From positions 62,001-126,000 of the forward strand of contig NW_011887301.1 of the NCBI RefSeq assembly GCF_000151315.2: a stretch of 64,000 bases of DNA, written 5' to 3'. The DNA is from Capsaspora owczarzaki ATCC 30864 (Eukaryota > Opisthokonta > Filasterea). Every line of letters begins with the position of its first letter. Position 1 is the first letter of the stretch. The notes beneath the pieces are model-generated. The model was not told where the DNA came from and did no database searches. It saw only the letters and a program-made list of their open reading frames with translations. A program made the translations under genes and the position numbers. Shown here one piece after another: positions 12,824 through 51,857 of the stretch.

Positions 12824-15800
12824 TGTCTCTGACTACTTTTCGCACCAAAACCACTCGCAATTCAATTCCTCTGTTGGTCAAATTTTCCCTTTCCTTCATT
12901 TTTTTCCATTCAATCTCACTCACTCATCTCATCTCATCTCATCTCACTCATCTCCCCGTGTCCTCATTCACTCGTTCCTCCCAACCAGCGGCTGAACAAC
13001 TCTCTCTCTCTCTCTCTCTCTCTCGTTGCTCACTTTGGTTTCGTCAGTCACTTCAACTCTCTCAATCCAAAAAGCAGCCAAACGCGGCAACTTTTTATTT
13101 TATTTTTTTTTTATTTTATTTTTATTTTTTTTTATTTTTTTTTTTTTTTTTTTTTTGAGGATTCGACTCGGGTTTGTGCATTCGCTGGACATCATTCCCC
13201 CAGCGGACTGCATTTGCGCGTTTCCTGTGTTACTCACTCACTCACTCCTTAGCTTCAAACTGAGGCTTGCCCATGTTGCCGTCCAAAACGAACGAATCAC
13301 TCTCATTCAATCGAAATTCGAAACGGATTTTTTTAAGTTTTTGGATGATTTTTTTTCCTTCGTTGCTCAGACTTTTGGGCGAGTTATATTTCATTTATTA
13401 TATCCTCTGACTTTGCTTGACACCTGAAAGATGAGCGAAAGCCGAACACTCAACTCTTAACGGAAGCAGCAAACAACATTCGCATCGCAACCAACAAGTC
13501 TCAGAAATTGATAAACAATCCAGAACAACAGCTAACTCGTGTTGTTGCGTTTTCTGCTTTGGTGTTCTGGCTTGCTTGATCCTTGCTTGCTAACAGGTGC
13601 ACTGCCAGTTCCAGTGGTGCGCGAAGAGCTCGTCCGAAGCGAGGCGGCGTCGCCTGCACCACCAACGCATGATCCGAGTGCTGCAGGCAATATGCTTGGG
13701 TTGTCCGCCACGCATGCTGCCACGATCTTCTCGCCAAGAGGTCACCCACGGTCTGCAACAGCCATCCCCATGCCCTCATTCCGGGTGCGACCGCTTTCGG
13801 CGCCGTCCTCCGTCCCGTCGTCCAACTCTGCATCTGCTGCGTGCTCCACTCCAACTTCGCCCAAAGCGATGGACTTTGACAATGTCCAGGAGCCTCTGGG
13901 AGATCATGCTTCGGAAAGCGCGTCAGACTCCCAGCCTCAACCGGCATCCACGACTGACACTGTTGGTGCAGACGTAGGAGACGGCGAACCTAGCTCACGG
14001 GATGGACTGGAGTCGAGTACATCCATCCCATCCATTGGCGGTGACACGCCAGAGCTCCAGGCCGAGAGAATCCGCATGTTTCACCAGATGCGTGCCAGCA
14101 GCAGCAACTCTTCCTTTGACGAGTCGTTTGACACCCCTGGCTCATCACAAGCGCGCCATGCACTGATCGCGGCCGCCGCCGTCGAAGCCATTCGGGCCGA
14201 GCAAGCAGCCAGGAAGCACAGCAACGCAGATTACTTTGCCTATTTGGCCAGCCCGAGCGCTTCGTTCGATGCAAATAAAGCGGCGCTTCCTGGCAGCCCT
14301 CGGTACCGCCAATCCTCGCTTTCCAGCGCGAGCGAGTCGACCAGCCACACCCCCAAGCCCACCAGTCGACAAAGTACACTTCGGTCTCCTGATCGCACCG
14401 CATCTCCCTCGGGTGAACACGCCGACGGGAGCAGCCTTCTCGGTGCCGATGACGTGGAGAAGAGTCGTTCTGGGCCGCCAGCCGATGAGGAGCAAACAGC
14501 AAGCTCGGTCGCTCACTCGCCAGCCGAGTCCATCCCTCATCATGAGCAGAGCTCTGCATTGCCCCAGTCCCCAGCTGCAGAACGGTCGGATGAAGAGCAA
14601 AATGTTTCGCACGACGAATTGCCGGATTTGCCTTCCCCTGCAATGCCTTCCGAACCTCCTGTGCGGCTACTGCTTCATCGCCGCTCCTCGTTTATAGCTG
14701 CGCCTCACATGATGCAAGAAATTGAACTGGATGAGGAGAATTTAGCGGCCCTAGCGGGCTCGGATGCATTGCACGACAATGGTATGGGGCGTGCATTTGC
14801 CTTCATTTGCCTGGTGGTGGTCGTTGGAATTGTTGCCGTGTGTTATTTTTTGCTTACGCCCAAGGTTTTTTTTTTTGTTTGTTTGTTTGTTTGTTTGTCG
14901 CAGACCGAACACTTTTATTCCTTGCGCTGCACGCGCTCGCCAAGCTGCTGCCACCAACAGACGCCTGCCGAATGCTGGTCGAGTTGAAATCCGACTTTAA
15001 GCACGGCGGCCAGTTCTTGGCACTCGTATCGGAACGCAAAAATCCAGACCGACAGGCACTCTTGTGCGTCGATTTGCACGACCCGGACCACCACCACGTG
15101 CGTGTGGACCGACGGCCGTTCATGCCACCGCTCGCCACCAACTCGAGCAGCAGCTTGAGCGCCAATGACCAGCGGCTCTCCCGTCCAGAGCAAGTCGAGC
15201 TGCAGCGCAAACTGGAGCGTGAGGCCGAGCAGCGACGCCAGGAGCACGAACGCCTCGCCCAGGATCAGTCTGGGCGCCCTCCGTGGCAGCAATGGCATCA
15301 AATCCAGCAGCAGCATCTGACAGAGCAACAGCAAAAGGAGCAGTTCCAGCAACTCAAGATGCAGCGGCACAAGCACTATGAGCAAAAGTTTGCCATGTCG
15401 GGTGCAAACACTCCTCGAGAACCTGGAAGCCCCAAATCGACGTCGTCCATGGCCCTGTTTGGTGGGTCGTCCTCGGGCAAGGGACGCCGCGACCAACGGC
15501 CGGGTGCGGAAGATGGCTCCGAGCCAAGTGGTGGTTACACTCGATCCACGTCCGAGTCTGGATTTAGCGCGGATTTGCCAGACCAGGCGGACGAACACTT
15601 GGTTGTGGCTGCTGTCAGTCGCAGTGCCAGTGCCGCTAGCTCGTTGCAAAGCTTACGAGGTGGCGCCTCGCAAGGCCGATGGCGACCTCTCTCGGTGGGC
15701 GCACAGCACGCACCCGCTCATCTGGTTGGTGCTGGTCTGGCGTCGTCGTCGTCATCGTCTGCGTCGCCTGCCCCTCCCAGCCACTCCTCGACCGGGACCC

Positions 15801-17263
15801 CCGAGCCAGCATCTGCTGCGTCTTCATCGCTCGACACATCCACGCCCATGCAAACCATGGCGACCTCGCCCATCTTTTTCCCGCCTGCGCTGCCCGGCGA
15901 TGCCGCCTCGAAATCTACTGGCGAGGGCCTTGCTGCATCCTCAGCGCCCCGGCCGATGGGGGTTGGCCGCCCAGTCAGCATGTCCAGCATGGCTGAAAGT
16001 GCGGCATTTTCGCCTCCCGCGGCTCGCCCGTTCCCCGCAGGCATCACTGCATCCCTTTTCCCTGCGCAGCGCAGCGTGCCGGATATCCGTCTGTCCACGT
16101 CGGCGCCGTCCGCCTCCTCCTCGCCCATGCCTATGCGACTCGATGGCGTGGCAGAGGACGACGGTCGATCCGACACTCCGCCCTCCTTGTCCTCGGCTGG
16201 TGATTCTGTTGCGACTCCGATGGTGACGGACGACTCGGCAACGTCGGCATCGTCGGGAGCAGCGGGAGCGGCGGGATCTGTGATTGCACCCCATGGTGTG
16301 GCCGTCCCGAAGGCTGCCATCCAGGCCGTCGAGTGCTTTATTGGCCTGAGTGTTCCGGTCGTTCGCCAGATGACTGTGCTGCTGAGCGGCAACGGCGCGT
16401 TTGTTGTGCGCCTTGGTCACCGAGCCTACTCTTTCCACACGGCCTCCGTTCGCTCCCTGTGGTCGACCATCTCGGCGCTCCGCCAGGCTGCCGAGTCGGC
16501 ACCAGAGTCACACGCAGTCGAAAAGGACGAGGACTTCCAGGCTTGGATTGCTCCCTACCATGCGCTCGTCCAGCGCGCCCAAAAGTCGCCCAACCACCGA
16601 CTGTACCGCAACATTGGCGATTTGGAGATTCGCCGGCGGTCGTCCATCGGCTCGCCCCAAGATCTCGACCACAAGCTGGACGCGCCACTCAACGTCGTCT
16701 ATCAAGGCGGCGAGGGACGCCCTGCAGAGCTCGATGTCATCAACAAGCTGCGCGAGTTTATGATGTGCAGCGATCTCGACTCTGTGACGCCCAAAGAGAT
16801 GCGCACTGCCTTGGAATCGCACTTTAACATTGACATGAACTATTGCAAGAAATTTATCGACGAAAAGATTCTCGTCATCATGGGCCAGCTGGAACCTCCC
16901 TCCAAGATTCTCGAGTATCTCTACCTCGGCACCGAGTGGAATGCCAGCAACAAGGAGGAGCTGCAGCGCCTCGGTGTCGGCTACGTCTTGAACATGGCCT
17001 GGGAAATTGACAACTTTTTCCCTCTCCTCATCCAATACCACCACTGCCTCATCCATGATGAAAACTGGGAATCGATCTTGCCGCACTTTGACAACACATA
17101 CCGGTTTATCAAGAAGGCGGTCGACAACAATTCAAAGGTGCTGGTGCACTGCAAGATGGGCGTCAGTCGCTCGGCCTCAGCCGTCATCGCCTATATTATG
17201 GTGAGCATATCGACGACAGCAATTCTGTTGCTGTGGCTGTTATCATGCATCCTTTTTTTTTGG

Positions 17264-17299
<36 letters not shown>

Positions 17300-17684
17300 C
17301 CTAACGAAACGGTTGTTCGCTTTTGTTTGACAGAAATCGCTCGGCTGGCCTTTGAAGAAATCGCTCGAGTTTGTCAAGTCACAGCGTAGAATCATTCGCC
17401 CAAACCCGGGCTTCACAAAGCAGCTGGAAGAGTACGAAGGCATTTTAGCGGCCAGCAAGTTGTACTCTGAGCGCGTGGTGGCGGTTGCTGCTGAGGCTGG
17501 AAACGTGCCAACCCCTCCGCCTCCGAGCATCACGCCGTCCATGTCGTCCAGTTCGCTCAGCGAAATTGCTTCCATCAAGGCGACTGGGACGTCTGTGAAG
17601 CAGCTGACACGCACTTTGCTGAGCGGCAACGTCTCCCCGCCTGCCGCTGACTCTTCGAACGCAGCTGTGCGGCAATTTTCCTAG
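12592..17684 (+). CDS. SSH: Slingshot-type cofilin phosphatase (SSH)
   Basis: Slingshot phosphatases remove the inhibitory phosphate from cofilin/ADF and so raise actin turnover. Exons 12592-12697, 13597-14781, 14904-17200 and 17334-17684 give about 1312 residues. The catalytic core (about 1095-1235) has the cysteine loop HCKMGVSR at residues 1179-1186, identical to animal SSH, plus the SSH-type LG(T)EWNASN and EIDNFFP segments. A DEK-C domain precedes it (about 1042-1090, TPKEMRTALESHFNIDMNYC). The SSH-N domain is present in two blocks, about 431-500 and 900-970, separated by a Ser/Pro/Gln-rich insert of about 400 residues. The first ~430 residues are also low complexity. The 35-codon first exon is supported only by frame and splice sites across an 899-base intron, so the true start is less certain than the rest. 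Confidence 0.88.
12698..13596 (+). repeat. Simple-sequence-rich first intron of Slingshot
   Basis: The proposed intron holds CTCACT/TCTCTG repeats (about 12735-12830), a CT microsatellite (about 12999-13024) and an almost pure T tract with scattered A (about 13094-13156). Donor is GTTTGT, acceptor CTAACAG. No coding segment is seen inside. Confidence 0.6.
17264..17297 (+). repeat. GTT microsatellite in Slingshot intron 3
   Basis: About eleven GTT units form the T-rich part of the intron 17201-17333, upstream of the TTTGACAG acceptor. Confidence 0.8.
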
Positions 17685-17940: not shown

Positions 17941-20437
17941 TTAGTCCAGGGACGCAGTGAGATCATTCAGCATGCCCTCGAGCTGATCGAAGGATGCGCC
18001 GACCTTGCTCACGCGGAACGAATCGGGACGAGGAGCTGCTGCGGCAGCTTGGGCGGCAGCAAGCGCACTTTGGTCCACTGGGGCAGCGGCAGCGACGGCA
18101 GGCGCTTCGATTTCTGCTGGCGCTTCCACGACGGGGTCCTGAGCCACAACGGGCGTCGGCTGGGGAGCGGGGACAGGAGCAGGAGCTGCTGCTGCTGCTG
18201 CTGCTGCGACAGGTGCCGGGGCAGCCCAGCTGGGCTCGCCTTGTGCAAGAATGTCCGAGAATGCGGAATCGGCAGCCACGGGCGTCAAGACAACCTCCGG
18301 CTCGTCGTCCATCTCAAACACGGCGACAGACACGCGCTTGTCATCCGCTGCAGCGGCGGCGGTAGCTGCAGGCGCAGGCGCAGCAGCGGGGGCGGGCTGG
18401 GCCTTGACGGGCAATTCAACACGGCCAGTCTGAGCAGAGTCGACCAGCTTGCCTTCTGCAGACGCGAGCGGCTTGGCCTTGATGGTCTCTTGCTGGATGG
18501 AACGCTCACGGTGGACGAGGCGCTTGGCAGCATCCTTGATGGCCTCAACCCAGTCCAGAATGTTCTGGCTCTCGTTGGCAGCCAGACGCCAGGTGCGGTC
18601 GGGCAGCACAATCTCGAAAAAGTATGAGCCCTTCGGACGCAACGAGGACGAGCCTTTGAGCGTGGCGAAAATGTTCTTCTTGCCGGGCTTGGCATCTTCG
18701 AACGGATGCTCGATCGTGCGCACCTCAGCCTTGTCGATATCGGCAATCTGACCAAGCGGCTTGGAATCCTTCTGGTCCTTGTAGTAGAAGAGGCTGGTGC
18801 CCTTCAGCACAAACCAGCGCGTCTTCCACGATTTGACGTTAAAGCCCTCCTTTTCGAGCCAGCCCTCCTTGTCGGCGCCAAGATTGGAGCTCAAGTCTGC
18901 CTTGGTCTGGTACTGGAAGAAGGATGGGTCGGTGGTTTCCCACGCGTCGCGCAATTGCAGCAAGTTTTCTGTGGCCTCGAGTTCGCGATTGGCGATGCCT
19001 GCAGAGAAGAAAGGCAGAGAGATGAGAACACGACACAAGAATCTCCGTAGGAATCCACACCTCAACAAAGACGACAAAAGATGGAGGTTGAGGTTGCATG
19101 CATACCATCAGCCTTTTCGGCACCAAAAATGCCAAACTTGGTGGGATCGGTCTCCTTCAGCTTGAGACGCTTGAAGACCAAGGCGGACGCATCAGCAATG
19201 GTCATGAGTGGGGTGATGTACAGACGGAAGTGCGTCTCGCTGACACCCTGAGACATGCGGAAGAACGTGTTAAAATTGATGGTGATGGCGTGGTCGGTGT
19301 TGACGAGCTTGAAGAAGAAGGAGCGGCGCACTTGCACGAGCTGGACCTTGCCTTCTTCCATCAAGTGGCTCCAGCGCGATTGCACTGCCGACAGGCGTTC
19401 GGTCGGCTGGAGCAGGGTTTCCTTGGAAGGAGCTGTCAAGAAAATTAAGGATCAAGATGTGAAATGAGCAGAGTTTTCGGCTTGACATGTCGGGTCGAGC
19501 TGCACTGAGCTGGCATGTGAATGAAATTGAGTGAAAGCCTGTGTTCGCTGGACGTTTACTGAGCCGCATAGGAATCTGTGGTGAGACGGTGAAGGACTCC
19601 TGACTCATTGTCGCGACCGCCGCTTCAGCCCAAGTTGTGTTTTTTTTCTGTCGTGCTTGTCTGTGCCTTCTTTGGGGTTTCTTGCCTGTCAGGTGCTCGC
19701 GGTGCCTTCGCCCATCAACAAACTCATAGTCGTGTCGGATGGATGAAAATGGAAGGTTGGGTGAAATTTTTTTTTTTCGTTTGATTTTTTTGTTTGATTT
19801 TTTTTTTTTTTTTTTTTTGGTTTTGGCTGAGTTTTGCATTAGACGTTCGTCTTCGCTCTTCTCTGCTCTGCTTTCGACGCCGCCCTGCACAGGCGCTCTC
19901 CTCCGACCACGCATTAAGACAGCTGTAACACTGTCTCATCCCGACGACCGATTCGAGCGGGACGAGCCAACCACGTCCGTTGGAATCCCCCATTTGTGGT
20001 TTCCACAAGCCATGATAAAGACAGACGTACCATCGGACGAGACTGCGAGCTCGTGGAGGGCAAACTTGGACTTGAGGCTAAAGATGCCGTCTGGCGCGCC
20101 GGGTGGAGCAGTCCAGACGTTGAGCAGGGCAGTCACGGCAGCCGGGTAGTTGTGCAGGAGCGAGTTGAGCAGGTCGTCGATGGTCGTGGTCGACGCGGCG
20201 GGCGGTCGCACCATCACCGTCGTCACCTCATCGGGCAGCATCACCGCAATCTCAGCCTACACGCGGAGGGGGGCGGACGAGGTGGAGCGCGGGTGCAGCA
20301 GCCAAACCCATCAACAAACCAAAATGAATCAAACAAAAATGATTAAAAAATTAAAAAAAAAAAAAAAAAAGTCAGCGTCTTTTACATTGACATTGGAAAT
20401 TTCGTGGTTTCACCCCCAACAGCAATGTACTCACCAT
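17941..20437 (-). CDS. Tandem RA-like plus PH domain adaptor with a RIAM-like C-terminal helix
   Basis: Probable Ras-family-GTPase and phosphoinositide binding adaptor. Exons in transcript order are 20435-20437 (ATG only), 20031-20256, 19106-19432 and 17941-18998; all junctions keep frame and give 537 residues. The N-terminal half has two ubiquitin-fold (RA/FERM-F1-like) segments: AEIAVMLPDEVTTVMVRPP...KFALHEL (about 2-120) and PLMTIADASALVFKRLKL...KFGIFG (about 150-225). A clear PH domain follows (about 228-345; KEGWLEKEG, WKTRWFVLKG, final WVEAIKDAAKRL). An Ala/Pro-rich linker of about 170 residues leads to the extreme C-terminus FDQLEGMLNDLTASLD, which resembles the talin-binding helix of RIAM/lamellipodin. 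RA-PH order is that of MRL and Grb7/10/14 proteins; no SH2 domain is present. An in-frame ATG at 20731 is an alternative start, but its peptide is hydrophobic and repetitive. Confidence 0.75.
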
Positions 20438-44167: not shown

Positions 44168-46441
44168 TCAATCCCCGATTTCGTGGGAAGCAGCACTGGT
44201 CGTCGTGGCGGTGGTGCCAGACGGGACTCCACTGCTGGGCGCACGCCAACGGTACCACCGACGACGCCGGGTAAAGTGCTTGCCAGCCGCGAGGTTTCGC
44301 CACTCTTGCCAACGCGTTGTACCGTACTGCCAGCCCTCGCGGTCAGACTCGCCGTCGATGAGAACTTGCCAACTTGGCGAAACCCACTCCCAGCCGCGCG
44401 GAAGGACGATATTTTCGCGGGTGCGGTCGATGGTACCGTCGGCGTCGGAAAAGTTGGGCCGCTCGCCGGGCATCAAGCGGTCTGTCCAGCCCATGGCCAG
44501 CCACCATCGCTGATTCTCGAAAACGAGCTCGCAGCGCGCGTCAGGCACGGGCGCAAGGGACGGGTCAATCCTGCTGCGCATCGAGTAGTTGACGGGACTG
44601 AAGTTTCGGAGAAAGGAAGTGCGCGTGGAAACATGGCGCACCAAGACCCGTCCGAGCGCACGACAGGGTGTCGTGTTGCCCAGCAGCACCAGGACACCGC
44701 TCGCGGCCAGCAGAAAGTTCAAGGAAAAGATGCACTGCAGCACCAAGATGAAAACCGAGTACGCGATGGCTCCATACACGAGAATAATGGTTGCAAAGTC
44801 GTCCGTCCAGTCCAGCAGTTGCTGACAGGCAAGACCTGCTCGGTACATGTCGCCATGCTGGCCCATCATGTTTTGAATGCGCTGCAGGTTGTGGCGATAG
44901 TCGGCATTGCGGAAGAGTTCCTTGTTGAACAGAAACCCCATGACGCCTTCGCGAGACAGCAACGGGGCTGGTGGGACTTTGTAGGATGATGTGCCTGGTG
45001 AGGAGGAGGTGGCTGCGGAGGTATTGGTTGTTGAAGTGGCGGCGGAGGAGGTGGTGGCAGTTGGTGCCGAAAAACTGGGAGAACGCGCGGCTGCCGCAGG
45101 CGTAGAAGGTGCTATCGAAGAGCGAGGTGATACGTCTGAAGTGACGTTGGAGCCAACGGCGGCAGCGGCGGCGGCGGTCGTGGCAAAGGTCGGCGAGGAC
45201 GCATCCGCCATGTTCATCACCTCAAATTCGTCAAAGCTCATCTCGTTGTACTGGGGAGATCCGCTGCCTGGCTCGATGCCGTCCGGACTCGGTGCGGGCT
45301 CGCTACTAGCAATGGCATCACCAGCGGAATGACGGTGACGGTGGAGCAGGCGATGATGATGTTCGTCCTGGGCAGACTCGCTCGTTGTGCGGCGATGCGA
45401 GCCTGACGCAACAGCTTCCACGTTGCGCCGCTCGCGGACTCTGGCAGCATGCGACGAGCCAGTGTAGCCGAGAAGTGCCATGGCGGGAACGAGCGGCAAG
45501 AGTCCGGGAAACATGCAGAGAAGGACCCAAGCCAGCATGACCATCAGCGTGGTGACTGGATGCTGCCAGTAGTACACATCCCGCGCAGCTTCGATGGCCG
45601 AGAACACGGGGTTGGTCTCCGCGACAAACCGACTAAAGTTGCTCGTCAATGTTCGCATGTGCAGCGGCGGCTCGAACAGCTCGAGCTCGCGGTGCTGCGT
45701 GACGGCTTCCGTCTCTGCCGTGAGATCACGCACGAACTCGAGGCTTGCGAGGTAGTTGAGCGTGTCTCGGAAGGAGGAGGTGGAGAAGGAGGGTGTGGCG
45801 CTTGGCGTCTGAGCGCTTGCTCGCTGTGAGGGTGTGGCGGAGGAGGTTCCCGAGCCAGCCGCCGCAGCCGCCGTCGATTGCGCAAGCTGCCCACTGCTCC
45901 TCGGTGCGTTTGGAGCGACTGGCGGCAGTGGTGGCAGCGGCGGCAATGGCGGTGGAACGACCCCGCTCGCACTGACGTGGCGCGTGTTTGCCTCGCCGTC
46001 GCTCGCACGGGCGGCCCGCTTGCCAGCAGCAGTAGAAGAGCGCGACGGGGCGTCGTTTGGACCTGGGTCGGGGTTGTCGTCGTCGGGGTCGTCTGGGTCG
46101 TCGTCCTGGTGGGTCAAATCGGGTGACGCAGCGTCAGATTGCGCACGACTGCCCAGACTGGCCTCGCTCGGGCTCTGCGCCGGCTGGCTCTGGTGAGTCT
46201 GTTGTGTGTGCGTGTGACTGCGCCATGCGTCGCAGGTCAGCAGCGCGGCGGACACAGCGGGAGAGCCCACCTGGGCCAGCTCAGCGAGCTCGGCAGCGCA
46301 GGCGTCGTGCGCATTCAGCTGGCAGGACGTGCACTGCAGGCCCTGGCGAACGAGGCCCCACAGGAACTTGCTGCACACATCGCAGAACGTCGGCCGGTGG
46401 AAGGTGTGCGGCGCAAACAAGTGCAGCCCAGCAGCACTCAT
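44168..46441 (-). CDS. C1 zinc finger fused to a Pex30-like reticulon/dysferlin-domain membrane protein
   Basis: A single exon of 757 residues. Residues about 12-48 form a C1 domain: H-T-F-x-x-PTFCDVCSKFLWGLVRQG followed by C-x2-C-x4-H-x2-C, the diacylglycerol-type spacing, although the usual last cysteine is not obvious. After a 200-residue Ser/Pro/Asp-rich linker come two hydrophobic hairpins of about 40 residues each, near residues 295-335 (TTLMVMLAWVLLCMFPGLLP) and about 560-610 (IILVYGAIAYSVFILVLQCI, NFLLAASGVLVLLGN), a reticulon-like layout. The C-terminus is a complete dysferlin (DysF) domain: CELVFENQRWWLAMGWTDRL, GWEWVSPSWQV, DREGWQYG and RRRRWYRWR. Hairpins plus DysF are the Pex28-Pex32 architecture (ER sites for peroxisome and lipid-droplet biogenesis in fungi); the N-terminal C1 is an addition. 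Role at an ER subdomain is inferred. A splice-acceptor-like CACTCAG just before the ATG suggests a 5' UTR intron. Confidence 0.8.
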   Translation of the reverse strand: MSAAGLHLFAPHTFHRPTFCDVCSKFLWGLVRQGLQCTSCQLNAHDACAAELAELAQVGSPAVSAALLTCDAWRSHTHTQQTHQSQPAQSPSEASLGSRAQSDAASPDLTHQDDDPDDPDDDNPDPGPNDAPSRSSTAAGKRAARASDGEANTRHVSASGVVPPPLPPLPPLPPVAPNAPRSSGQLAQSTAAAAAGSGTSSATPSQRASAQTPSATPSFSTSSFRDTLNYLASLEFVRDLTAETEAVTQHRELELFEPPLHMRTLTSNFSRFVAETNPVFSAIEAARDVYYWQHPVTTLMVMLAWVLLCMFPGLLPLVPAMALLGYTGSSHAARVRERRNVEAVASGSHRRTTSESAQDEHHHRLLHRHRHSAGDAIASSEPAPSPDGIEPGSGSPQYNEMSFDEFEVMNMADASSPTFATTAAAAAAVGSNVTSDVSPRSSIAPSTPAAAARSPSFSAPTATTSSAATSTTNTSAATSSSPGTSSYKVPPAPLLSREGVMGFLFNKELFRNADYRHNLQRIQNMMGQHGDMYRAGLACQQLLDWTDDFATIILVYGAIAYSVFILVLQCIFSLNFLLAASGVLVLLGNTTPCRALGRVLVRHVSTRTSFLRNFSPVNYSMRSRIDPSLAPVPDARCELVFENQRWWLAMGWTDRLMPGERPNFSDADGTIDRTRENIVLPRGWEWVSPSWQVLIDGESDREGWQYGTTRWQEWRNLAAGKHFTRRRRWYRWRAPSSGVPSGTTATTTSAASHEIGD

Positions 46442-47790
<1,349 letters not shown>

Positions 47791-50700
47791 CTACGGACGT
47801 TGTTGGGAGGCACATCTTTTCAAAAACGTTCGATCGGGCCGGTCCAGGTCGCGCAGGTCGGGCTCAAAAGGCTCGCTGTCGTCGTCGCTGTCCGTGTCGC
47901 TCAAATCGCCATCATCACTGTCAGGCTCGCGGTTGCCAAACACGTGTTGCCGAGATCGACTGGGGCGAGTATTGGCAGGTAAACCAGCGTTGTCTTGATA
48001 GAGGTGATCGAACCAATGTTTCGAGGCGGCGTCAAGACGAGCGCGCTTGCGTGAGCTCTCCTCGGACGAGTTGGTGCCCGCATCAAGCGATAGAGCTCTG
48101 CGCCGCCGTGTACCAGCAGTCTCCGTCAAACCATCTGCTGGAGCACTTTGACTGGAGCTGTTGGCAACGGAGTTGACGGGCATTTGCGCAGAACGACGGC
48201 GCTGATCTTCCGACCTTTCAAACGCTTCCACATCGCCAGCGACGATGTACGCAGCGCTGGCGCGCAGTGAGGACTTTGGTGGCCTGACAGCGGGTCTGAA
48301 GCTCGGCTTGACGCCCGGCACTTTGCGAGCAGCGTACTCTGTGTGCTTTGCGTACGCTGCAGCTCGCTTCGCTCTGATAGTCGCTGCCCGGGTCTTTTGA
48401 GCCTGCCGCTTTGTTTGATTAAAAGTTTTATCAGTAAACAGGGTGCGCATTGCTCGCTGTCGAGAGACTGAACTCAGGGAGCGGGTAGCGAACGTTCGAA
48501 CTGCCTTCACGACGGTTGCGAGCGCTTTGACTGGCAAAGATAATTTTTGCAAATCATCAAACACTGGCTGCAGTCGAAGCGAGATCTCGTGGACGACTTT
48601 CTGTGCCTGGGACGAGTGCCTCAAAGGTGGTGAGTCGCTGTCGTCGGAGTCGGAGTCGTCGTCTTGAAACAGGCTCGTAGCCTGCATAGCTGTGCGTATT
48701 GACGGTAGTGTGATCGAAGGTGCAACTGAGGGTGCAACTGAGGGTGCGACCGAGGGTGGTGCGACCGAGGGTGTAACCTCTTCCGCTGCCGTAGACGAAG
48801 TCGAAACAGTCGAAGAAGTCGGTTCAAACATTTCTGCTTCCCTGACATGCATGCCATCGCCAGTGCCGTGCTCATAACTTGGTTCACTCGAGTTCTGGTC
48901 TTGCGGAACATCTGCACCAACTGAGACAGGCGTCTCAGGGTCTGCAGTTGTGCGGACAGGACTTGGAGCCTCACGATCTTGAATGAGCGCGTCCAACGCG
49001 ATACCAAACACTTCCAGTCCACCAAGCAGGCGGGCAGCAGCTCTAATGTGCGTGCACACGAGGGAGCAGTCGTGGAAGTCGGTGCAAAAACGGGACTTGA
49101 CGACGACGATGGTAACACTCTTCTTGTATCCCCGATAAATATCGTCGCGCAATTTGTGCCAGTAGTCCTGTGGTACCAACGTAAAGTCTCCGATATTGGT
49201 GCTTTGACCATGTCCATGGGCGATCATGTGGTCGGCTGAAAATTGCAACAAGTTTGCGCTTTGTGGAATTGCTGATTTCGAGATCACCATGCCAACACCA
49301 GCGTTGCTGTCGAGTATCAAGACACGGTCGCACAGCACTCTGGCCTTGGCTGTCGACTCGTAGTTCCAGATACGCTCGCGATACTTGGGGAGGCAGGCGA
49401 GATTTGGAACGTTGACGAGGAGCCATTGACGTTTCAAGCAAAACTTCTCATTGACATCCCAAATGAGCTTGGTCGCCAGCGTTGGCAAATCCGAGTTCGA
49501 GTTGGAGTTGAGATGCGTCATTTTGATTGACTTGAAGAGTCTACGTGCGAGACAACAACGAAGGCAAGCAATGTAAGCAAAGTGCGGGACGCCAGTTTAA
49601 GTACAAAGCCTCTCCAAACCGATCGGTCACTCACCTCTCAATCAAATTGTTGGTAGAACCCTGGTCCAACGCTGTCGGGATGGTTCCGATATGCGGAAGC
49701 GTCCAGGTTTCGATTTGGCCCTTGGCAAACCATTCTTTCTCCAGGTACGCCAAGTCCTTCTCGCTCAGTCCGGCCTCTCTGACGCTCTTCACGCGGCTTT
49801 CAAGCTCCTCCAGGGACCTGGAACGCCGAACTTTCTTGAGGATCTTCTCAATGTCGGGATGAGAAATATTGCGCAGGACGGCCTGCTTGACATGAAACCA
49901 GCAAGTGGAAATCTGAACATTGACGGCCTCCCTGATGGCAGCTGCCTCGGCTTTGCACTTGTCAATCACAAAACGCAGAGGCTGGAAGCAAGAGCCGAGC
50001 GCCTCCTTGAGCACCGACAAGAATTTTGCGTACACTGCCGCGGTATCGTTGGAGGCTATCATGAACGCGAGGGGAACGGCCGAACCGCACTCGTCTGCTG
50101 CAACAAGCGCTGTCAAGCCCCAGCGTAGCTTGGTCACCTTGTAGGTGGTGTCGAGGAACAGGACTTGAGGGCGCAGCGAGCTCCACATCGCCCGTTGGCA
50201 CGGCGTGACCAGAACAAGAATGCCTGGCGAATCACGGCAATTAGGATCCTGGGCCTGATGAAAGAGTACGTCTGGATACTGTTGATATGACTTGATGCCA
50301 GGACAAACTCCACACCGACCCACGGGATGCGGGTGCGCCAGCGCACGCGAGGTTGGGCTGGTTAACAAGTCTTCCATGCGCATTGCCTCGGAACCAGCCG
50401 TCTCGGGGTTGAAAGCCTTGACCATCATGCGTAAAGCGTCATGCGAAGGATACCAACGACCAGACGTCAGTGGAACGTTCCAAGACGGGTGTGGGACGGG
50501 TGGCGGGTTTGAGGCGCTGCCTTGAAACTGTTGGACGATCGATGTGACGTCGCAGCGCTTGGATGCGAGATCAAATGCCCATGTTTGGATGCTCGGATGC
50601 GCTAACTGCTTGTGAGCAAAGACGCCCTCCGTGCACCGAGCATCGTGCTGGCCGGCGAGAGAAACTCTCCAACCAACAACCTGCAGCGTGTTGCCGTCTA

Positions 50701-51697
50701 CTTGAACCAGGTCGGATTTCGAAATGGCAAAGGTAGACGAGCCTTGCCCTAATCCTGGCTGCACACGGAAGTCGTTGTCGAGTCGATGCGTATGCATGGG
50801 GTGTGTGAAGTCCAATGATTCGAGAAATCGGTCTTGAATCATCGACGAAGCTGGAGACGGCTCCTTGCTGCTTGTTGACCGGTGATTGAAGCACCAGAAG
50901 CGCTGTGTCCTTGAGCACAGCACGGGCCGGTTGTCGAACCAGAGGTCGAGTTGGTTACGCTCATCTTGCGTGAGGTAAACCGGCGACGTGCCTGGTTGCG
51001 AGTTGACATGACCCTCAGCAATAGACTCGGAAACCTCGTCTGCGTGGGTGAGCTGAGCTGCTTCCGGAGCCGAAGACACGGTTGACGCAGCAAGGTCGAC
51101 TTCAGCAAGGTCGTCTTCAGCAAGGTCGTCTTCAGCATCATGTGGAGGAGCATGTGGAGCGTGGGCAGAGAGAACTGGCGAAGCCGAATCCACTTCATCT
51201 CTGACCTGAGACCTGCGTGACTGACCAGGACAGTAGTCGTGCTTCAAACGCAAGTCGATTGTACTTTGTTGGCGTTCCCAGAAGTCCTCCAGGCTCTGCG
51301 GATCGTTGAACATCAGGCGGGTGTGGGCAAGCTCACCGAGCCTCGTTGTCGGAGCGTTTCTGGCTGGCTCCTCGGCTGGCTCGCTCGCTTGCTGATCTTT
51401 CAACGCAATCTTCTTGGCAGTAGCTTTTTTACGATATCTGGCGTTGCGATCAGTGCACGACTTGCATGTCTTTCGTCCCTCAAAGAACTGGTATGAACGG
51501 CAGGCATGCTCGCGCTTGTTACACCTGAAGGAAACAATCGCCATGAGCTCCGACGTCTGAACGGCTGTGTTGTCATGTTGCACTCGCATGATGTTATCTT
51601 GGTCGAACGTGACTAGCTGGATGATGGGGGTTTCGGGCGAGGTCAAGAGTTCGCGCGGGATGAAGCCTGGGAGCGCCGCCGTAACATGGCGGACCAT
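47791..51697 (-). mobile_element. Mutator-like (MULE) DNA transposon, transposase gene apparently intact
   Basis: Transposase of a Mutator-like element. Exons 49635-51697 and 47791-49540 are joined by a 94-base intron (GTGAGT...CACGTAG) and give about 1270 residues without a stop. An N-terminal Cys-rich finger (FRCNKREHACRSYQFFEGRK then TCKSC, about residues 57-85) may bind the ends. The MULE catalytic core has LDTTYKVTKLRWGLTALVA (first Asp about 517), PLRFVIDKCKAEAAAIREAV (second Asp about 575), CWFHVKQAVLR, and NNLIERLFKSIK with the expected Glu, the last completed across the splice. A SWIM zinc finger follows (about 830-850, CTDFHDCSLVCTHIRAA). The C-terminal 400 residues are basic/acidic low complexity with a VAPS tandem repeat (12-base units at about 48717-48768). 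Terminal inverted repeats were not found by eye, so the element ends are unknown and the coordinates are those of the gene. Confidence 0.85.
48717..48768 (-). repeat. 12-bp tandem repeat coding (VAPS)n in the transposase tail
   Basis: Four to five units of GGTGCAACTGAG type, slightly diverged, encode SVAPSVAPSVAPSV. Frame is kept. Confidence 0.8.
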
Positions 51698-51857
51698 GAG
51701 CCGGTCCGTTCGCGGGGGGAGCTCAAGTTGAAGTGTTTGATCGGCTGGGCTGGGCCACGAAGGTGACGGTGAGTATTGCCGACCAGGTTGTGGGTTCGAA
51801 CCTGTTTGGTTGCGCTTTCTGTTTGTTATTTTTTATTTTTTAAGTTATTTTGTATTT

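Follow-up and report, generated by a model that had tools for sequence, protein, structure and literature searches.

Does Capsaspora owczarzaki carry at this locus a unicellular forerunner of the RIAM/lamellipodin adaptors, which in animals connect small GTPases to talin? Capsaspora integrin tails recruit talin, but how they are controlled from within the cell has still to be worked out (PMC6450878), and whether small GTPases had a route to talin before animals arose is an open question. A sequence-only reading of the window (the whole stretch of 64,000 nucleotides that was analysed) had proposed here a protein with two ubiquitin-fold segments, a PH domain, an Ala/Pro linker and a helix resembling the talin-binding helix of RIAM and lamellipodin, placed at the extreme C-terminus. 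It had added that the organism group has integrins, and integrin beta is indeed encoded at four places of the genome (six matches).

The limits that had been proposed for the gene coincide exactly with those of the spliced gene (Table 1). Splice sites and the open frame define four exons on the minus strand, which encode 537 aa without an internal stop. The three introns are all GT-AG and measure 178, 598 and 107 bases. As exon 1 consists of the start codon alone, the N-terminus could instead be Met7, encoded in exon 2; the C-terminus is not in doubt. A search of the genome with the gene gave 49 matches at E<=1, three of which are its own exons. Since the rest cover the PH region, there is no second copy and the gene is single-copy in the genome.

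Table 1. Features of the RA-PH gene and its product (positions are those of the window)
Feature	Position	Strand	Residues	Remarks
Whole gene	17941..20437	-	537 aa	4 exons; splice sites, open frame
Exon 1	20435..20437	-		start codon alone
Exon 2	20031..20256	-	2-76	
Exon 3	19106..19432	-	77-185	
Exon 4	17941..18998	-	186-537	and stop codon
N-terminal region	19227..20256	-	about 2-145	unassigned, interrupted by intron 2; residues 1-139 match no Pfam family at E<=1
RA domain match (marginal)	18916..19211	-	151-213	spans intron 3; PF00788
PH domain, Grp1-like	18526..18870	-	229-343	PF00169, PDB matches
Ala/Pro-rich linker	17992..18465	-	about 364-521	read from translation
C-terminal LD/TBS1-like helix	17944..17991	-	522-537	FDQLEGMLNDLTASLD

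The predicted architecture was recovered in part. The PH domain is clear (E 5.7e-17, 62.6 bits against a Pfam gathering cut-off of 25.1), and both the Ala/Pro linker and the C-terminal tail, directly before the stop codon, are present. The two ubiquitin-fold segments fared differently. The second corresponds to a putative RA domain, which is marginal (E 4.6e-4, 21.2 bits against a gathering cut-off of 21) and covers positions 25-87 of the 93 in the profile, its first strand being unrecognised. The first segment was not recovered: besides the lack of a Pfam family (Table 1), residues 1-229 gave no PDB sequence match at E<=10, and AlphaFold, run without an alignment, returned a poor model for exon 3 (108 aa, mean pLDDT 42.9). 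For part of exon 4 (184 aa) the mean pLDDT was 49.6. Residues 1-145 showed the highest of six local alignment comparisons with the F0-F1 region of talin from the same genome (z 3.2), a weak hint of a talin-like N-terminus that should be taken as a lead only. In the same region, N-terminal of RA, a looser LD pattern finds the stretch IDDLLNSLL (residues 27-35, exon 2), whose agreement with the LD consensus is similar to that of the tail.

The PH domain has its nearest PDB relative in cytohesin-3/Grp1 (E 6.6e-10; best 60 of 88 matches) and keeps the basic and Tyr residues aligned with that protein, which form the 3-phosphoinositide signature. Among the PDB matches listed, the PH domains of cytohesin/Grp1, DAPP1 and PEPP-type proteins are the closest; unlike these, the window protein has an RA domain, and neither SH2 nor Sec7 is among its Pfam matches (E<=10). 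A SIN1-like CRIM-RBD-PH layout was also considered and was dropped, as no such family appeared among the Pfam matches.

The order of RA followed by PH, a low-complexity region and a talin-binding-like helix are shared with the MRL proteins (RIAM, lamellipodin, Pico and MIG-10, as well as Dictyostelium Daydreamer), but the RA-PH unit of the window protein is of a different sequence type and its RIAM-like helix is C-terminal. A profile was built by aligning the RA-PH sequences that the PDB gives for RIAM, lamellipodin, Grb10 and Grb14; against it, hhalign gave 49.5% on 101 columns of PH and left RA unmatched. With the same profile, hmmsearch over the ORFs of the studied loci gave the window protein 9.0 bits, versus 162.4 bits for a gene at C3 that is described below; several of the genome's ordinary PH proteins scored higher than the best PH domain of the window protein (8.8 to 11.2 bits by ORF), which was absent from the RA-profile match list at E<=10. 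The BLASTP alignment with RIAM spanned 17 PH-domain residues, and the window gene was not one of the seven matches at E<=10, among the best candidates scored, that the RA-PH unit of RIAM found in the genome. RIAM, lamellipodin and Grb7-family chains were likewise absent among the best 60 of 88 PDB matches. Profile, hmmsearch, BLASTP and genome search thus led us to reject MRL membership, and judged by its sequence the window gene is outside this family. Membership of the Grb7/10/14 family, which shares the RA-PH order, was rejected as well, the match to the Grb10- and Grb14-holding profile being a generic PH match and SH2 being absent from the Pfam matches. The profile search that had been suggested as a check therefore places the window RA-PH with neither family.

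The two best of the seven RIAM matches adjoin each other, at C3:1,097,116-1,097,385 (RA, E 1.6e-12) and C3:1,096,490-1,096,720 (PH, E 2.1e-6). They belong to a gene on the minus strand (L047, L048) that extends from C3:1,099,651 at least to a Pro-rich exon beginning at 1,096,275 and can be spliced at GT-AG sites without an internal stop. The order of its parts is as follows: SAM (E 1.1e-17), a Pro/Ala region with LD-like stretches (one of them LDALLEDLD), a helix-like stretch, RA (PF21989, E 1.2e-20; PF00788, E 1e-15), PH (23.7 bits, just below the cut-off of 25.1), a Pro-rich part and perhaps a CH domain, whose match (15.6 bits, below the cut-off of 26) was obtained on pieces joined by hand. 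The RA-PH unit matches the MRL/Grb profile at 99.9% (E 1.3e-37, 232 columns; hhalign), and in the PDB it finds lamellipodin (6.2e-39) and RIAM (1.6e-36) above Grb14 (3.3e-28), the alignment with lamellipodin including the stretch before RA.

In our reading the C3 gene is a homologue of the MRL proteins whose parts stand in the animal order, the helices preceding RA as in RIAM. In the accessible text of the open-licence literature we found no description of an MRL protein from Capsaspora or another unicellular holozoan; Dictyostelium has a single MRL protein, reported in PMC4861126 to bind Ras rather than Rap1. Of the two genes, the one at C3 is the stronger candidate for an ancestral Rap1-RIAM-talin link, since its LD-like helices, helix, RA and PH follow one another as in animals; it is also the best candidate for the ancestor of RIAM and lamellipodin.

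This bears directly on the proposal that the window gene is itself the forerunner of RIAM and lamellipodin, with its talin-binding helix moved to the C-terminus and a domain rearrangement to account for it. That a single protein has RA before PH and also carries a RIAM-like helix speaks for the proposal, but the RA-PH unit is not of MRL type, the gene is not among the genome matches of RIAM at E<=10, and the C3 gene already combines an MRL-type RA-PH with N-terminal LD-like helices. We therefore consider it very improbable; and because the C3 gene has its LD-like helices before RA, no rearrangement need be invoked.

What, then, is the C-terminal tail? Each 20-mer was scored by its mean BLOSUM62 score against the talin-binding helices of RIAM and lamellipodin, whose letters were taken from the methods part of PMC8287531. 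The tail is the best RIAM-like 20-mer of the window protein; in the C3 gene such stretches, i.e. the LD-like helices and the pre-RA helix, lie N-terminal of RA. It scores 25 and is identical to the RIAM helix at 7 and to the lamellipodin helix at 8 of 20 positions. In a background of six-frame ORFs from the window and from a non-random set of loci enriched in genes for PH, RA and talin, and not from an annotated proteome, this score was reached by 2 of the 102,397 distinct 20-mers, namely the tail, which ranks second, and a motif of the C3 gene (LDDMLGNMLEDLDALQSDVE, the best of its LD-like stretches, score 32). When frame ends were compared in ORFs of 100 aa or longer, the tail came first of 833 (next best 11.5), and 16 of 100,000 shuffles reached its score, the tail having been chosen by eye before this chance test. 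At the level of letters, its likeness to the RIAM/lamellipodin helix exceeds chance, and the earlier description of it holds, as a statement of likeness only. A search of the genome with the tail found no match besides itself; one with a 27-residue lamellipodin peptide, which had no positive control, found nothing at E<=10 and is insensitive, since it missed the similar motif on C3.

The pattern of the tail is also that of an LD-type helix. Residues F522, L525, L529, L532 and L536 follow a 3-4-3-4 spacing, as does the DLC1 helix on talin R8 (derived from the residues that PMC4938799 lists), and D523 stands at the position of the LD-motif Asp. Hydrophobic residues at 0, 3, 7, 10 and 14 with an acid at 1 were found in 25 of 108,793 15-mers and at 2 of 862 frame ends, including the tail; the hydrophobic moment of the tail is 0.394, which 2.7% of shuffles reach. 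Two registers align the tail with RIAM: register A retains F..L.G....LT.SL at the cost of the LD box, whereas register B preserves that box (FDQL for IDQM) together with the heptad. In the register of best fit, I8, D9 and M11 of the N-terminal LD box of RIAM correspond to V, G and S in the tail. Compared with the LDxLLxxL consensus, FDQLEGML fits in its Asp, L+3, L+7 and heptad spacing, and departs in its first residue (Phe) and its fifth (Glu, E526). With the LD-motif proteins paxillin, DLC1 and KANK the window protein thus shares a short amphipathic helix, a low-complexity region and an Asp after the first hydrophobic residue, but it differs from them in the Phe, the Glu and the extreme C-terminal position. 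LD-like patterns are common, since a simple one retrieves more than 6000 human sequences, as stated in PMC7703752.

It is conceivable, then, that the tail is an amphipathic helix of some other use (a nuclear export signal, an autoinhibitory contact or a helix without function) and that its likeness to RIAM is due to chance. The tail was picked by eye and has 7-8 identities in 20, and nuclear export signals have been proposed in PMC7703752 as a source of LD motifs. The rank of the tail among the 20-mers, the shuffles, the heptad spacing and the Asp position typical of LD helices speak against it, and we regard this explanation as somewhat unlikely.

If the helix does dock, the genome offers two kinds of candidate partner. 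Talin gave one genome match. The talin gene (L036, C1:3569375 onwards) occupies a single, very long open frame of 3220 aa; as 1479 of the 3108 codons analysed read N, a one-exon structure is uncertain. The visible part of R7-R8 matches human talin with E 1.1e-45. With the residue numbers of PMC4938799, transferred by counting along the alignment, L1492 is conserved, position 1510 remains basic and V1526 is Ile. Gln replaces K1530 of R8, a residue that makes a charge contact with DLC1, and the part of R8 around K1544 is masked. For ligands of talin R8, PMC4938799 reports Kd values of 3.5 (RIAM), 48 (DLC1) and 168 uM (paxillin).

The other kind of partner would be an LD-binding bundle distinct from talin, such as that of a FAT domain, vinculin or parvin, which is a sub-case of the explanation that we prefer. 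One FAT-domain gene is present in the genome (39.7 bits versus a cut-off of 23.3), and D523 fits the LD consensus. Nonetheless, E526 departs from that consensus and the tail is nearer to the RIAM and lamellipodin helices than are the paxillin LD motifs, which score from -5 to 20 on the scale used for the tail (the second RIAM helix scores 10.5). A partner of this kind seems to us quite unlikely.

Our preferred explanation, which carries about half of our confidence, is that the window gene encodes an RA-PH adaptor outside the MRL family that is recruited to membranes and docks through its C-terminal LD-type helix on a helical bundle. The Grp1-like PH domain, binding 3-phosphoinositides, perhaps together with a small GTPase on RA, would bring the protein to the membrane; the long Ala/Pro arm, presumably flexible, would present the amphipathic helix, which may pack on a helical-bundle domain, with the talin rod (R8-like) as the first candidate and the FAT domain as the second. 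The gene, the PH domain, the tail with its likeness, the placement outside the MRL family and the presence of candidate partners are shown by the data; the membrane half of the scheme draws on the identity of the domains, and we infer the binding of lipid and GTPase as well as the docking and its partner. Speaking against the scheme are the departures of the tail from the LD box of RIAM and from the LD consensus, the Gln at K1530, the commonness of LD-like patterns and the marginal RA match. Since the RA-PH unit of the window protein does not cluster with that of RIAM, the likeness between their helices would perhaps be convergent.

The most far-reaching version of this explanation is that the organism has two separate links from membrane to talin: (i) the C3 MRL protein and (ii) an unrelated adaptor, encoded in the window, which gained a RIAM-like helix at its C-terminus, so that the RIAM arrangement would have evolved convergently outside animals and the second one would be gated by 3-phosphoinositides. 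We put this forward tentatively and think it unlikely. Proteins with LD motifs are already known from unicellular eukaryotes, 1 to 20 non-paxillin ones per species with 39 of 53 being species-specific, according to PMC7703752. Should the window protein indeed dock in this way, its talin- or FAT-docking helix would be a transferable module that a different RA-PH adaptor can acquire. For the question of how small GTPases reached talin before animals, the window and C3 genes provide two concrete genes in one organism.

A further protein of the genome (L035, C9:593525-596761) has RA followed by PH in a single ORF of 1079 aa. It shares this order with the window gene and fits neither it nor the MRL profile: it was rejected as an MRL protein (hhalign 25.9%, hmmsearch 8.9 bits against the profile), and its RA does not clearly resemble that of the window protein (z 1.1). 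Two myosins (L038, L039) carry several PH domains and appear MyTH4-FERM-like by eye, and their C-terminal parts weakly match the RA model. Within the window, a Slingshot-type phosphatase gene (14735-17684, plus strand) converges on the RA-PH gene; its ORF at 14735-17386 encodes SSH PH-like, DEK_C and DSPc domains, and a further exon, to 17684, was recognised by eye. On the minus strand, 44168-46528 joins a C1 domain to a Pex24p-type region, and an ORF at 49631-51832 contains a MULE transposase domain.
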